Shown here piece by piece: positions 2,665 to 8,240 of a DNA stretch of 64,000 nucleotides. Location: contig NZ_CP007032.1 in assembly GCF_000231405.2 (NCBI RefSeq), positions 1,674,001 through 1,738,000 on the forward strand, given 5' to 3'. The DNA comes from Desulfitobacterium metallireducens DSM 15288. Lineage in GTDB: Bacteria > Bacillota > Desulfitobacteriia > Desulfitobacteriales > Desulfitobacteriaceae. Within the stretch, counting starts at the first letter, position 1, and every line of letters begins with the position of its first letter. Made by a program: the position numbers and the translations under genes. The notes beneath the pieces are model-generated. The model saw only the letters and a program-made list of their open reading frames with translations, did no database searches and was not told the origin of the DNA.

Positions 2665-3891
2665 ATGAACAAAGTCATTGATCGGTTTCTTAAATATGTC
2701 CAGATGGACACCCAATCGGATGAAGGATCTACGACAGTCCCTAGTACTTCAAAACAACTTGCTTTGGGTAAAATATTGGTGGACGAACTCAAAAGTTTAG
2801 GATTGCAGGGGGTTAAGCAAGATGAGAAAGGCTATGTCTATGCCACTCTTCCCGCTAATATTACCCAAACCGTACCCGCCATCGGTTTTATCGCTCATAT
2901 GGATACTAGCCCTGATATTTCAGGCCATGAGGTTAAACCTCAACTGATCAAAAACTACCCTGGTGGTGATATTGTTTTAAACCCTAGTCAAAACATTATT
3001 CTTTCTACTAAGGATTTTCCAGAACTCAACGATTATATTGGAGCTGATTTAATTACAACAGATGGAACGACCCTGCTTGGAGCTGACGACAAAGCGGGCA
3101 TTGCTGAGATTATGGCCGCTCTAGAATATTTAAATAACCACCCTGATCTTCCTCATGGTAAACTCTGCATTGGATTTACGCCTGATGAAGAGATTGGTCG
3201 TGGGGCTGACCATTTTGATGTAAAAGGTTTTGCTGCAGATTTTGCCTATACTGTTGATGGAGGTCCGATTGGCGAATTAGAATATGAAAATTTCAATGCA
3301 GCTAAAGCTGTGCTTAAAGTTCACGGTCGTAATGTTCACCCAGGAAGTGCAAAGGGAAAGATGATTAACTCCCTGCTCTTGGCCAATGAGTTCATCTCCC
3401 TTCTTCCACAACAGGAGACCCCGGCGCATACGGAAGGATATGAAGGGTTTTATCATCTGAATAGCCTTCACGGGGATGTCGAGGAAACTGTGCTTGACTA
3501 CATACTTCGCGACTTTGAAAGTAAAAGTCTAGAAAACCGCAAAGATACAATGAAAAAGGCCCTTCACCAGTTACAACAAAAATACGGTGAAGACGCCTTT
3601 ACATTGGAAATTACAGATCAGTATCAGAATATGCGTGAAAAAATAGAGCCTGTTATGCATATCGTTAAAACTGCTCAACACGCAATGGAAGCTGTTGGAG
3701 TCAAACCCAATATTAGTCCGATACGAGGAGGTACCGACGGTGCACGTCTTTCCTATATGGGCTTGCCCACTCCAAACCTCTTCACAGGCGGACATAATTT
3801 CCATGGGAAATATGAATTTATCCCTTCCTTTGCTCTTGAAAAAGGAGTCGAAGTCATTCTCAAAATAATTGAGCTTTATAGTAAACCTTAA
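2665..3891 (+). CDS. pepT: Peptidase T (tripeptide aminopeptidase)
   Basis: Cytosolic M20-family zinc aminopeptidase of 408 residues that removes the N-terminal residue from tripeptides. Metal-site and catalytic motifs are in place: HMDTSPD (His78, Asp80), GADDKAG (Asp141), TPDEEIG (catalytic Glu175, Glu176), VDGG, and near the C-terminus [10 protein letters not shown] and GGHNFHG with the last zinc ligand. Length matches the family (about 405-410). ATG is preceded by GTGGAGG. Its stop codon abuts the stop of the convergent MFS gene with no spacer. Confidence 0.97.
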
Positions 3892-5058
3892 TCAGGCTGA
3901 TTTTTCATATCGATTCAATTTTCTTCCTGCGATTAAGACTGTACCCAAAAGAAGAAGGGAACCGGAAACATAGGGTAATCCGATGGATAACCCATAGAGA
4001 GCTCCACCGATAATCGGTCCGAGGATTCGCCCCAAACTTGCGAACGATTGGAAAAGTCCAAGCGACGCTCCTTGGCTTTGATTTCCTTGTTTGGTAACAA
4101 GAGCTGAGCTGGTGGGGCTCATCAAGGAATTACCAACCATAAATAGAATGGTTGCAATAATCAACGCTATCGCGTTCGGAGCGATAAGGATAAAGATTAG
4201 ACCGATCGCGCAGAAGTAAGCCCCCGCTTTGACTAAGTTAGCGTCTCCAAACCGTTTCACTAATTTGCCAATTAGTCCGCCTTGAACAATAACCCCAAAT
4301 ATTCCGAGGATCGTAAATGTCGTCCCCATCTCTTTTGGTCCAAAACCTACTTTAACCGCAGCTAACATTGCAAATGTAGTCTCAAACATAGCCATGGAAA
4401 AACTAATAATAAAGTTGAAGATATATAAGGCGAAGAGAGGATCTTTCGCTATTTCAAAACTAAAATGCGGAATCTTCTTACTCGAAGCAGCACTCGATTT
4501 TTGTAATGTCTCCGGTAAAAAACTCCAGGCAAAGGGTAGAATTGCAAGGGCTAAAGCACCTGCCACAAAAAATGGTGTGGAAAAACTGTAATGACCTAAC
4601 CATCCCCCCAGCGCAGGTCCAAAGACCATCCCAAGCCCCATTGCCGCGCCAATCATTCCCATGCTTTTCGAGCGATCTGCGCCTTCAGTGATATCGGCTA
4701 AATAAGCCATCGAAGTGGGAAGAGTCGCGGATGAGACCATTCCCGATAATGCTCGAACGGCAATCAAAAGCCACAAATTATGAATCATTCCAAAAAAAAT
4801 AAACGTCAACCCATAGCCACTTATCCCGATAAGAAGGACAGGTCTCCGCCCAATGCGGTCTGAAAGGCGGCCCCAAAACGGGGCAAAGAAAAATTGCATA
4901 ATTGAATAAGCCGACATAAAAATTCCAAGGGAAAGCGCATTCCCCCCCAAGTCCTGAACGAGATAGGGCAGAATTGGAATCACAATTCCAAAACCAACCA
5001 TGACGAAAAATTGAATTAAAACGATAATAATCATAGGACGAATATATTTTTTCTCCAT
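3892..5058 (-). CDS. MFS drug/metabolite efflux transporter (DHA1/TetA-like)
   Basis: Integral membrane protein of 388 residues with twelve predicted helices. The MFS signature GRLSDRIGRRPV follows helix 2, and helix 5 carries GPALGGWLG, the drug/H+ antiporter motif C type. It resembles the 12-helix multidrug and tetracycline exporters. It is the last gene of a minus-strand operon, 21 nt after the GH3-family gene and downstream of marR, so it may export the product or substrate of that enzyme; the substrate is unknown. Confidence 0.88.
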   Translation of the reverse strand: MEKKYIRPMIIIVLIQFFVMVGFGIVIPILPYLVQDLGGNALSLGIFMSAYSIMQFFFAPFWGRLSDRIGRRPVLLIGISGYGLTFIFFGMIHNLWLLIAVRALSGMVSSATLPTSMAYLADITEGADRSKSMGMIGAAMGLGMVFGPALGGWLGHYSFSTPFFVAGALALAILPFAWSFLPETLQKSSAASSKKIPHFSFEIAKDPLFALYIFNFIISFSMAMFETTFAMLAAVKVGFGPKEMGTTFTILGIFGVIVQGGLIGKLVKRFGDANLVKAGAYFCAIGLIFILIAPNAIALIIATILFMVGNSLMSPTSSALVTKQGNQSQGASLGLFQSFASLGRILGPIIGGALYGLSIGLPYVSGSLLLLGTVLIAGRKLNRYEKSA

Positions 5059-5079: not shown

Positions 5080-6753
5080 CTATTCTTTGTTAACTCTCCG
5101 GTTATTTTCGAGGATCGCCAGAAATTGCTCATCCTTTACCCAACGAGGAATTTTCACCTGATTGAGTGACGCCCCTCGTCGCAGCAACTCCTGCCGCAAT
5201 TTTTGGAAGGTTCCAGCCTGGACGAAATCTATTTTTAAGGGAGAAATCCGCTTGCCTTCGAGACCTGCGCGATAGCGGGGATTAGCTGCTTGAAGATATT
5301 TTTCAAGATTCTCCTGGAAATTTTCAAGTTTTGACGAATCGGCTTCTACATAGAAATGATAACGTCCTACAGTTTCTTTAAGGTCTAGAGTTGCAGTATA
5401 ATCCTCAACCGTGATCGACAAGGTCTGCGCTGTTTCACTCATTGCTCTTTGAACCGCTAGTTCAGAAGTTTTTTCACCAGAAATATTCAAAAGCTGGCCT
5501 TTACGATATTGGAATTCAAGAATCGGACTTTGATGGAAATACCCTGTCACCTTGACCACATCCTCTAAACGGTAGCGGTAAAACCCTGAATAATTGGTCA
5601 CCACGATTTCATAGGATTCTCCGATCTTAAGCTCATCAAGTTCTAGCGTTGTCGGACATGTGGAATCCATTTCAGAAATGGGAATGAATTCATAATAAGC
5701 AGCCCCCGGTGTAACAACATAGGTCGCTTCATTAATGCTTGTGGCTAAGCCAATAAGGGCTTCAGTTGCCCCATATACTGCTGAGTAAACAGGCAGATTT
5801 TCAGTGTAACGGTTAAGTTTCTCCATATAAACACTGAAACTTCCGCCTGCTACACACGAAACATATGCAAGTTTTGGCCAAAGACGTCGAGCGATTCCCT
5901 TCCATCCTTGTTGAAATTCCCGACTTAGACGCTCCGCTCTTCTAGGCTGAGGTTTTAATTTGGCGTCTAGTAAGGAACGTGTTTCGGGCTTAAGCGCTAA
6001 TTGAGATGAAATAAGGCCTGTTTTTAGGTCTTTCATGAGTTGTGGCCATGTTTCTTCAAGAACACCAAAAAGCTGAACAATGGCCGAAGGAAAGGGTGCC
6101 ATAATATAGGTCAGGTTTTCCTCCTGGAGTGCAAAAAGGAGATGTAAATAATTAGCAATGCTTTGATCTGAGATCTCTAAAATCTCCAAAGGGGAAGTCC
6201 AAAAATACGGAAGGACTTTTTGCATCGATTGAACTCCACCTGAGGTCCCTGAACCAGTAGGAACTCCACCAGAGGTGGTTCCCGATTGAAGCATATTCAT
6301 TAAAAGAAGTCCCCTCCCCCCTTGTCTAGCCTCAGGAAGAGCGTGACGTAAAATTCCGTGCTGTGTAAACATCATATTTAACATCATAATTTTGCGCGAA
6401 CGTCCAGTTGTGGGTATCTTCTTTTGCTTTCCAGTCGTTCCGGAACTTAGTCCAAAGTAAAGTACAGGGTCAGATGTCAAGACATCTTCTTTACCTGCTG
6501 CAATTTCCTCGACATAACTTTCGTATGCTGGAAATTTCGTTAAGGGTACAACCTTTCTATAGTCTTCAGAATTATGGATCTCAGGAAAATGATATTTCTG
6601 TCCGAACTCAGTTTTAGTGTTATCTGTCAAAATTTTTTTTAATATTTTATGATTGATTTTTTTTGCATTTCTCGTTTCTTTAACAAATTTATGGTAAAAA
6701 TAATCTGCTGCAAAAGCATATACCGCGTTAAGACCTTGCTCTAAAAAACTCAT
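5080..6753 (-). CDS. GH3-family (auxin-responsive type) acyl-adenylating enzyme
   Basis: Protein of 557 residues with the three ATP/AMP-binding motifs of GH3 enzymes: FGLSSGTTGKQKKIPTT (about residue 101), YGATEALIGL (about 328), and YRYRLEDVVKVTGY (about 390). GH3 enzymes belong to the ANL adenylating superfamily; plant members join amino acids to auxin or jasmonate through an acyl-adenylate. Bacterial members are little studied and the acyl substrate here cannot be predicted. The cap-like C-terminal domain (about 420-557) is present. It lies between marR (29-nt gap) and an MFS exporter, suggesting an inducible detoxification or signalling-metabolite module. Confidence 0.9.
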   Translation of the reverse strand: MSFLEQGLNAVYAFAADYFYHKFVKETRNAKKINHKILKKILTDNTKTEFGQKYHFPEIHNSEDYRKVVPLTKFPAYESYVEEIAAGKEDVLTSDPVLYFGLSSGTTGKQKKIPTTGRSRKIMMLNMMFTQHGILRHALPEARQGGRGLLLMNMLQSGTTSGGVPTGSGTSGGVQSMQKVLPYFWTSPLEILEISDQSIANYLHLLFALQEENLTYIMAPFPSAIVQLFGVLEETWPQLMKDLKTGLISSQLALKPETRSLLDAKLKPQPRRAERLSREFQQGWKGIARRLWPKLAYVSCVAGGSFSVYMEKLNRYTENLPVYSAVYGATEALIGLATSINEATYVVTPGAAYYEFIPISEMDSTCPTTLELDELKIGESYEIVVTNYSGFYRYRLEDVVKVTGYFHQSPILEFQYRKGQLLNISGEKTSELAVQRAMSETAQTLSITVEDYTATLDLKETVGRYHFYVEADSSKLENFQENLEKYLQAANPRYRAGLEGKRISPLKIDFVQAGTFQKLRQELLRRGASLNQVKIPRWVKDEQFLAILENNRRVNKE

Positions 6754-6782
6754 TCTCCCACTCCCTATTGCCTTATCTAATT

Positions 6783-7211
6783 TTAGTCCTCGATTATTTC
6801 CAAAAGGACCTGCTGATATCGAGCAAGGTGCTGATTAAGAAGTTCGATTTCTTTCTCTCCTAATTTTTCCTTAATTTGTTGGTGAACCTCAAAGAGTTTT
6901 TTTTCGAAGTTTCCTAACTGATTCTTTCCCTCTTCTGAAAGTTCAATGACAACCAACCGACGATCCTGTTCACTCCGCTCGCGCGTAATCAAGTTTTGTT
7001 TATATAACCGATCCACAAATCCAGTCACTGCTCCCAGCGTAATATTGAATTGTTTCGCGATTTCAGAAGGGGTACAGCTCTTTTTCTGCTCGAGAAATTT
7101 AAGAGCATGAAATTGGTGAAGAGAAATTGATCCTTCTTTGGGAAGCAAATAATATTGATATTTCTGTCCAATTGTATGCAGTAAAATTTGGGTTTCATAT
7201 TCTTTTTGCAT
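6783..7211 (-). CDS. MarR-family transcriptional regulator
   Basis: Winged-helix repressor of 142 residues. The HTH core is TPSEIAKQFNITLGAVTGFV and the wing is RERSEQDRRLVVIELSEEGK with the conserved DRR. MarR proteins bind DNA as dimers and release it on binding small aromatic or phenolic ligands or on oxidation. The frame extends to GTG 7223 and ATG 7220, but a GAGGTG site gives good spacing only to the ATG at 7211. It is first in an operon with the GH3-family enzyme and the MFS transporter, and a perfect inverted repeat at its transcript start suggests autoregulation. Confidence 0.9.
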   Translation of the reverse strand: MQKEYETQILLHTIGQKYQYYLLPKEGSISLHQFHALKFLEQKKSCTPSEIAKQFNITLGAVTGFVDRLYKQNLITRERSEQDRRLVVIELSEEGKNQLGNFEKKLFEVHQQIKEKLGEKEIELLNQHLARYQQVLLEIIED

Positions 7212-7221
7212 AAGTTTCATC

Positions 7222-7236
7222 ACCTCATTATGAGGT
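7222..7236. promoter_or_regulatory. Candidate MarR operator (perfect inverted repeat)
   Basis: ACCTCAT-T-ATGAGGT is a perfect 7-1-7 palindrome. It overlaps the expected transcription start and the ribosome site of marR, just downstream of the -10 box, a typical place for an autorepressor site. Confidence 0.6.
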
Positions 7237-7238
7237 CA

Positions 7239-7268
7239 ATTGTATGCCATCTAAATAGTTTATGTCAA
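7239..7268 (-). promoter_or_regulatory. SigA-type promoter of the marR-GH3-MFS operon
   Basis: On the minus strand a perfect -35 TTGACA (7263-7268) is followed after 18 nt by TACAAT (7239-7244). The transcript would start within the palindrome at 7222-7236. Confidence 0.75.
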
Positions 7269-7271
7269 TTA

Positions 7272-8096
7272 CTATTTTAGCTCAAGAAACGTTGGAAAAA
7301 AGAGTTCAAGGATCTTCTCAAATTCAGAGTCCTCTAAACCATCATTCACGAGATAAATAGGAAGTTGTTCAACGTTAAAAGGTGTTTTGTGTTTAATCCA
7401 TTGTTCTAAGAAAAGATAACCTGTAATCTCATCAGACCTGATAATCTGGTTTTCAAGATGACTGTACAGCGCTGATCGGTCCTGCACCTCTAGTTGTGCG
7501 GCCTGTACGTACCCCCCGCGTTGCCGTGCGTAAAGTTGGCGTAAATATGTAATCCTTAAGTCATCCCATTCTGGATGATTTTGAATAACATAGGCATTTG
7601 CAAGGGTTTCTTCAAAACATTCCCCTGTCCCCCAGCATTGGCAATAAACTTCCCGCTTATAGTTTTGATAAATATTATGTTTTCGTTCCAAACTGAATTC
7701 CGTTTGATGAAGATCATAGCGTTCTGCAAATTGTTCCACGAGATAGTGAAAAGCCCCATGTGATTGCACGCATTCTAAAGAAAAGGCATGGGCTTCACCG
7801 ATCGAAAGTTTTGTTGTTTCTAAGATATTAAGAAGAAATGCCATAAAGTAGCGTATATACAAGTAAAGTCCAAAATCAGCACCGTTAAAATGATAAGGGC
7901 GATAAGTAGCAACTATGTCCATATTTTCACAACGTTGATCAGTGAAATACTCCCCAGCCCAACTTATTTTTTCTTTAAACCAGGGTAAGGATCTTTTTCG
8001 TAGACGGTTAAACGCCGGCTTTGGAAGTTCCAAAGTTCCCCAATCTGGCACATCATAGCATGCTTCACCTATGCCTTTGTTTACTTCTAAACGCAT
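7272..8096 (-). CDS. Hypothetical protein with degenerate zincin-like pattern
   Basis: Protein of 274 residues with no recognised family. Around residues 113-117 it reads HGAFH, and about 45 residues later CQCWGTGECFEETLANAY. That spacing recalls metalloproteases with HExxH followed by a distal EExxAN segment, but here the catalytic Glu would be Gly, so an inactive protease fold is only a suggestion. There are three Cys within about nine residues (CQCWGTGEC). No signal peptide or clear membrane segment is present apart from one hydrophobic stretch (FMAFLLNIL). ATG 8096 has a GGGGAAGG ribosome site. It ends four bases upstream of the marR -35 box, and neighbours give no function. Confidence 0.6.
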   Translation of the reverse strand: MRLEVNKGIGEACYDVPDWGTLELPKPAFNRLRKRSLPWFKEKISWAGEYFTDQRCENMDIVATYRPYHFNGADFGLYLYIRYFMAFLLNILETTKLSIGEAHAFSLECVQSHGAFHYLVEQFAERYDLHQTEFSLERKHNIYQNYKREVYCQCWGTGECFEETLANAYVIQNHPEWDDLRITYLRQLYARQRGGYVQAAQLEVQDRSALYSHLENQIIRSDEITGYLFLEQWIKHKTPFNVEQLPIYLVNDGLEDSEFEKILELFFPTFLELK

Positions 8097-8240
8097 CACT
8101 ATTACCTTCCCCCTGCATTCTTAAGGCTTGTTCGATTAAAGAAATATATGCAGATGGTCTAGTTAGAATTCTAAGTTTACTAAAAAATTGGGCAAAATTC
8201 TGATTGGTAAATTCTCAATATGACTAACTCAATATGACTA

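Follow-up and report, generated by a model that had tools for sequence, protein, structure and literature searches.

A Putative MarR-Controlled Efflux Module with an Optional GH3-Type Enzyme in Desulfitobacterium metallireducens

Overview

The window, i.e., the whole 64,000-nucleotide stretch of Desulfitobacterium metallireducens DSM 15288 DNA analyzed here, contains three genuine genes, marR, GH3, and MFS, that form a conserved unit. Judging from gene content and trees across relatives, marR and the MFS pump make up a self-sufficient core, and GH3 is a recurrent optional insert, not an obligate partner. The leading reading of the unit, which we hold to be about as likely as not, is a MarR-repressed module for acid detoxification and efflux, equipped with an optional conjugating enzyme. 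GH3 enzymes, MarR–MFS pairs, and PadR-controlled pumps are already known kinds of system; in the open literature searched, we found no described marR-GH3-MFS operon, and no description of a GH3 within a regulator–pump pair, of the conserved operator of such a unit, or of its in-and-out evolution.

Gene Organization

The genome (3.18 Mb, single contig) belongs to the same family as Desulfosporosinus and carries one GH3 gene. The three genes follow one another on the minus strand in the order marR, GH3, and MFS (Table 1), with intergenic gaps of 29 nt (marR/GH3) and 21 nt (GH3/MFS), and their Pfam domains score above curated cut-offs. An earlier note on this DNA had described such a minus-strand unit, with an MFS exporter 21 nt past a GH3 of adenylating-enzyme architecture containing three nucleotide motifs; the gaps, the MFS_1 domain, the full GH3 domains, and the motifs SSGTTGKQK, YGATE, and GFYRYRLED bear this out. 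The range it assigned, 5080–7268, omits the MFS gene, and the unit reaches 3892, where the MFS gene and pepT (2665–3891, plus strand) meet tail to tail. The neighbors are pepT, an open reading frame (ORF) without assignment, and an htpG-like ORF, and inspection of ORFs and Pfam domains revealed no lipid or catabolic gene inside the unit. A 275-residue ORF at 7272–8099 (minus strand), with no Pfam or NCBIfam match, is also found near pepT in three related genomes (37–44% identity).

Table 1. Features of the marR-GH3-MFS unit and its promoter region (window positions).
Feature	Position	Strand	Basis or remark
marR repressor, 146 aa as called from GTG	6783..7223	-	MarR 62.7 bits vs. cut-off 24.6
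GH3-type acyl-adenylating enzyme/acyl acid amido synthetase, 557 aa	5080..6753	-	Pfam, plant GH3 match, AlphaFold2
Nucleotide motif 1, SSGTTGKQK, residues 103–111	6421..6447	-	Translation and alignment with plant motif
Nucleotide motif 2, YGATE, residues 327–331	5761..5775	-	Translation and alignments
Nucleotide motif 3, GFYRYRLED, residues 390–398	5560..5586	-	Translation and alignments
Lys534 in QVKIPR	5152..5154	-	Invariant in both alignments; aligns with plant QYKVPR/QFKMPR
MFS exporter, 388 aa, DHA1/NorA-Tet type, last gene	3892..5058	-	Pfam, structure match, orthologs
Promoter: -35 TTGACA (7268–7263), 18-nt spacer, -10 TACAAT (7244–7239)	7239..7268	-	11/12 matches
Probable operator, palindrome TAAACTATTTA in promoter spacer, downstream of -35	7252..7262	-	Conserved in homologous promoters
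Upstream arm AAATAGT, inverted copy of ACTATTT at 7259–7253	7271..7277	-	Possible outer half-site
Start-site palindrome ACCTCATAATGAGGT	7222..7236	.	Perfect; not conserved; overlaps likely ribosome-binding site

The GH3 Enzyme

The three domains of the enzyme score 304.9 (GH3, PF03321), 91 (GH3_M, PF23571), and 96.7 bits (GH3_C, PF23572) against a cut-off of 23.6. The nucleotide motifs and Lys534, which corresponds in position to the catalytic lysine that plant GH3s carry in their C-terminal domain, are kept in seven close homologues, among which Ser103–Gly108 are invariant; key positions are also kept in 18 more diverse sequences, across which the mean column identity is 58%, motifs retained. 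The best sequence matches among solved structures are VvGH3-1, JAR1, and GH3.12 (E 3e-69/about 1e-69). An AlphaFold2 model built from an 18-row alignment (pLDDT 84.8, pTM 0.78) superposes over its full length on AtGH3.15 at 2.5–2.8 Å with Z about 43, and more generally gives Z scores of 43–45 against plant GH3s and about 20 against PaaK-type acyl-CoA ligases. Because the model fits plant GH3s far better than acyl-CoA ligases, the predicted fold identifies the window protein as a GH3 in the strict sense, not an acyl-CoA-ligase variant of the ANL fold.

The link to plants is one of family resemblance. The acyl-pocket positions that set preference in plant GH3s have been listed (PMC10747189). In the window GH3, the helix of plant Arg130 is Met-rich (residues 120–128), and the positions of plant Tyr344 and Met337 are taken by Leu333 and Val326, respectively; as aligned, the pocket is none of the compared plant types. 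A prediction of the acid from plant pocket residues was dropped, because the residues differ from the plant ones and gaps in the decisive Arg130 helix can be placed in more than one way.

The Regulator and Its Operator

Control by MarR, proposed in the earlier note, is supported by a MarR domain above cut-off and by a palindromic candidate site that overlaps the gene’s own promoter. That promoter, TTGACA-18-TACAAT, is present as the note had given it and is the best in the region. The site proposed there as the operator, a perfect palindrome on the start site, fared differently. ACCTCATAATGAGGT is indeed present (7236–7222); a perfect palindrome of its quality turns up in about 1.75% of 60-bp stretches drawn at random from the window. 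None of the homologous promoters of relatives carries ACCTCATAATGAGGT, and GAGGTG, the likely marR ribosome-binding site, lies within its right arm; a role as operator is thus unsupported. Near-matches with at most two mismatches number 18 in the genome, versus 11 for a reversed control, and many of them are one recurring unrelated sequence. With GAGGTG at 7226–7221, ATG 7211 is a likelier start of marR than the called GTG.

A different palindrome, TAAACTATTTA, is the probable MarR operator, as promoter alignments indicate. In all 17 family promoters aligned, which precede marR or MFS in units with and without GH3, exactly 18 nt separate the -35 and -10 elements, and the first 11 bases of the spacer are TAAACTATTTA or nearly so. 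Among 14 non-redundant promoters, each base of the element is kept in 12 to 14, the remaining spacer being variable, and the upstream AAATAGT arm agrees at six of seven positions in 10 to 13. The Sporotomaculum L050 promoter has longer perfect arms. At the operator’s place, two more promoters, both like that of Desulfosporosinus acididurans, carry AAAATAGTTTA or AAAACTGTTTA, the same element read in the opposite direction or a near variant of it. The element is common and not universal, since no clear copy was seen in the stretches searched of the family promoters L142, L147, and L149. In the 3.18-Mb genome, exact TAAACTATTTA is promoter-placed once among the matches examined, and the one-mismatch match falls within an ABC ATPase gene; as none of the next five matches examined or listed sits in a promoter, a wider regulon was rejected. 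Such a single operator in the spacer would put the repressor on the polymerase site and make it a dedicated local switch.

The nearest NCBIfam models of the window MarR are FabT, BilQ, and HpaR, all far below their equivalog cut-offs, and identity as FabT (NF050133) was rejected at 66.1 bits versus a cut-off of 200. Proximity to FabT, even so far below cut-off, would be compatible as well with a fatty acid as substrate and a lipid as product. Under such a scheme of lipoamino-acid biosynthesis, GH3 would join fatty acids to an amino acid, and the product would serve as a membrane lipid, a surfactant, or a signal; MarR would be a FabT-type fatty-acid sensor, and the pump would export product or fatty acid in excess. 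For all four GH3-linked MarR copies tested and for one unlinked copy, FabT ranks first or second among the NCBIfam matches, and the bacterial GH3 with shown activity, OlsH of Singulisphaera acidiphila, is a lyso-ornithine lipid synthetase that uses free fatty acids to make N-acyl-ornithine (PMC12493201). Bacterial GH3s return more than 7500 BLAST matches (PMC12493201); in the literature searched, we found none with demonstrated activity other than OlsH. Identity of the window GH3 as OlsH (NF052613) was rejected at 94.8 bits versus an equivalog cut-off of 620, in a test in which a planctomycete OlsH (L072), 25% identical to the window GH3, served as positive control and scored 669.3. Unlike the planctomycete OlsI operon, the unit has neither an OlsI-like O-acyltransferase gene nor an OlsG neighbor; the FabT matches fall far short of the cut-off (66 versus 200), and the repeated loss of GH3 described below is more in keeping with an accessory than with a membrane lipid. 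We therefore regard lipoamino-acid biosynthesis as unlikely.

Recurrence and Exchange of the GH3 Gene

A profile scan of public genomes, started from the alignment, retrieved 25 loci, 23 of which are Bacillota loci of the window-GH3 clade; two of these are cut off inside GH3 and were left out, which leaves 21 untruncated loci. A whole-genome search added views of these and of other genomes. An orthologous MFS gene, 54–70% identical to that of the window, lies directly downstream of GH3 in 15 of the 21 loci (two with a damaged GH3) and is absent in six, e.g., in Clostridium and Sporotomaculum L050. The regulator-GH3-MFS order recurs in Desulfosporosinus, Sporotomaculum, Pelotomaculum, Desulfotomaculaceae, and Desulfoscipio amid varying flanking genes, and the neighborhood comparison thus upholds the earlier expectation that marR and MFS would be recurring partners of bacterial GH3s. 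GH3 genes on plasmids of Streptomyces, Parabacteroides, and Citrobacter sit in unrelated contexts, without the cassette. The Streptomyces copy (L156:3869–5539) lies beside polyketide synthase, P450, F420-dependent oxidoreductase, and threonyl-tRNA ligase genes; downstream of the Citrobacter copy (L158:2788–4320) come two radical SAM genes and a gene for an N-acetyltransferase, and GH3 followed by two ORFs of ~445 residues is also seen in L079 and L031.

The upstream regulator is in most loci a MarR, 41–53% identical to that of the window, with the Clostridium copies being distant MarRs. In a clade comprising Desulfotomaculaceae, Desulfoscipio, and Sporotomaculum L061, its place is taken by a PadR regulator of 130–132 residues, assigned by Pfam for two copies and by 74–89% identity to L061 for all. 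This group is one clade in both the GH3 and the MFS tree, and four members (L055, L056, L059, and L061) have repeated palindromes, TATCGyTAGCGATA, upstream of padR, between the -10 element and the start; the motif is likely the operator of an uncharacterised PadR group. With the clade having its own PadR sites, local regulation would have been kept though the regulator changed. MarR and PadR families commonly sense phenolic or lipophilic compounds. Sporotomaculum syntrophicum, an aromatic-degrading syntroph, has two GH3 systems, one MarR-type without a pump (L050) and one PadR-type with a pump (L061).

Seen from the pump, GH3 is a frequent absentee. An MFS search across 101 genomes found orthologues in 30, most without GH3. 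The GH3-less orthologues of Desulfosporosinus are marR–MFS pairs, often beside DUF445 and ammonium-transporter genes, and several carry the same operator. Three genomes that are Desulfitobacterium-like by kinship and synteny have the MFS gene without marR or GH3 near pepT and htpG, among neighbors shared with the window that include the ORF at 7272–8099. In three related genomes (L140, L141, and L153), the pump stands beside a 978-residue FAD/Fe-S oxidase in place of GH3, without the operator. On the MFS tree, GH3 presence needs seven changes, of which well-supported branches force at least six, and some changes separate two copies within one genome. Two relatives have an internally deleted GH3 beside an intact MFS, and in L026 it is the MFS that is broken and the GH3 intact; for all three, assembly error in draft genomes is possible. 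In the GH3 tree, the copies of Clostridium frigoris and C. psychrophilum are nested among those of Desulfosporosinus, which suggests horizontal transfer.

GH3-less pairs, at least six changes, and damaged GH3s beside intact pumps together make GH3 an add-on to marR and the pump. They also weaken the part of the earlier proposal that had GH3 and exporter as successive steps of one conjugate-then-export pathway: marR–MFS pairs run under the same operator without GH3, some relatives have GH3 without a pump, and others have a pump beside a deleted GH3, so the two need not act in series. A coupling of GH3 and the pump is more certain for regulation than for substrate. Taken further, the deleted GH3s beside intact pumps and the many GH3-less marR–MFS pairs could mean that only marR and the pump matter and that GH3 is a passenger, i.e., a neutral or decaying hitch-hiker. 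We consider this very improbable, given the 58% mean column identity of 18 diverse GH3s with their motifs kept, the intact GH3 in most loci, including one beside a broken pump (L026), and the association of GH3 with both PadR and MarR.

The Pump and Proposed Function

The pump scores 202.5 bits for MFS_1, over the curated cut-off, and its nearest solved structure is NorA (E 6e-47, NorA residues 7–380 aligned); orthologs in relatives are 54–71% identical. By sequence, it is a DHA1-type MFS of the NorA/Tet drug-export type, and identity as a Tet(A/B/C) tetracycline pump (NF012174) was rejected at 197.7 bits versus an equivalog cut-off of 475. This kinship opens a reading as a drug-resistance operon, with marR–MFS as ordinary multidrug efflux and GH3 inactivating a carboxylate-bearing natural antibiotic through an amide. 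The patchy distribution of GH3 and the nesting of the Clostridium copies, suggestive of horizontal transfer, would accord with it. Yet the pump scores far under resistance-specific models and, to our knowledge, no resistance enzyme is a GH3, which makes the antibiotic reading quite improbable. The weak FabT resemblance and the switch to PadR do not decide between the detoxification, lipoamino-acid, and antibiotic readings.

The detoxification module is favored by the GH3 domains, motifs, Lys534, and fold, together with the recurring gene order, the drug-type pump, and the conserved operator; by the retention of MarR or PadR control; and by the lack of a lipid or catabolic gene in the unit. In this module, MarR would occupy TAAACTATTTA between the -35 and -10 elements and block polymerase. 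On entry into the cell, a carboxylic acid of lipophilic or aromatic character would bind MarR and release it from the operator; GH3 would adenylate the acid with ATP and attach it to an amino acid, in the manner of plant GH3s and OlsH; and the proton-driven pump would expel the acid, the conjugate, or both. We infer these steps, from ligand release of MarR through adenylation and amino-acid transfer to proton-driven export, by analogy. The GH3 add-on would widen the range of what marR and the pump neutralize.

A stricter version, in which anaerobic Bacillota have repeatedly plugged a plant-type GH3 into a MarR/PadR pump module so that the sensed acid is conjugated to an amino acid and the conjugate exported, we regard as rather doubtful. 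If true, it would give prokaryotes an equivalent of hormone conjugation in plants or of detoxification by conjugation and subsequent efflux, and the sensed acid would be aromatic, fatty, or plant-derived. In either case, the window-GH3 clade offers a built-in assay: with a local repressor, a candidate operator, and a pump at hand, the inducing ligand should reveal the enzyme’s acid. The clade also lets one ask whether acid–amino-acid conjugation serves inducible detoxification in anaerobic bacteria, and it exemplifies an enzyme that repeatedly comes and goes within an efflux module.

Comparison with Known Systems

Plants use the GH3 family to join hormones to amino acids. The plant enzymes JAR1, AtGH3.5, AtGH3.12, AtGH3.15, and VvGH3-1 share with the window GH3 the domain architecture, nucleotide motifs, YGATE glutamate, C-terminal lysine, and fold, at 25–31% sequence identity. 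OlsH, a bacterial member of the family, has the same motifs, and by analogy, ATP-dependent formation of an acyl–amino-acid bond is to be expected of the window GH3; the two differ in that they are separated by a long branch in the GH3 tree and in that the window gene has MarR and pump neighbors instead of OlsI and OlsG. Tet(A/B/C) and NorA are, like the window pump, DHA1-type MFS proteins and align over the full length, but the Tet equivalog cut-offs are all well above its score, and the pump corresponds to no named resistance gene. Lastly, in MarR–MFS efflux pairs such as EmrR with EmrAB, the repressor lies directly upstream of a drug-type antiporter, with one promoter and a palindrome over it, as here, whereas the window unit has a GH3 gene between regulator and pump and an operator sequence of its own.
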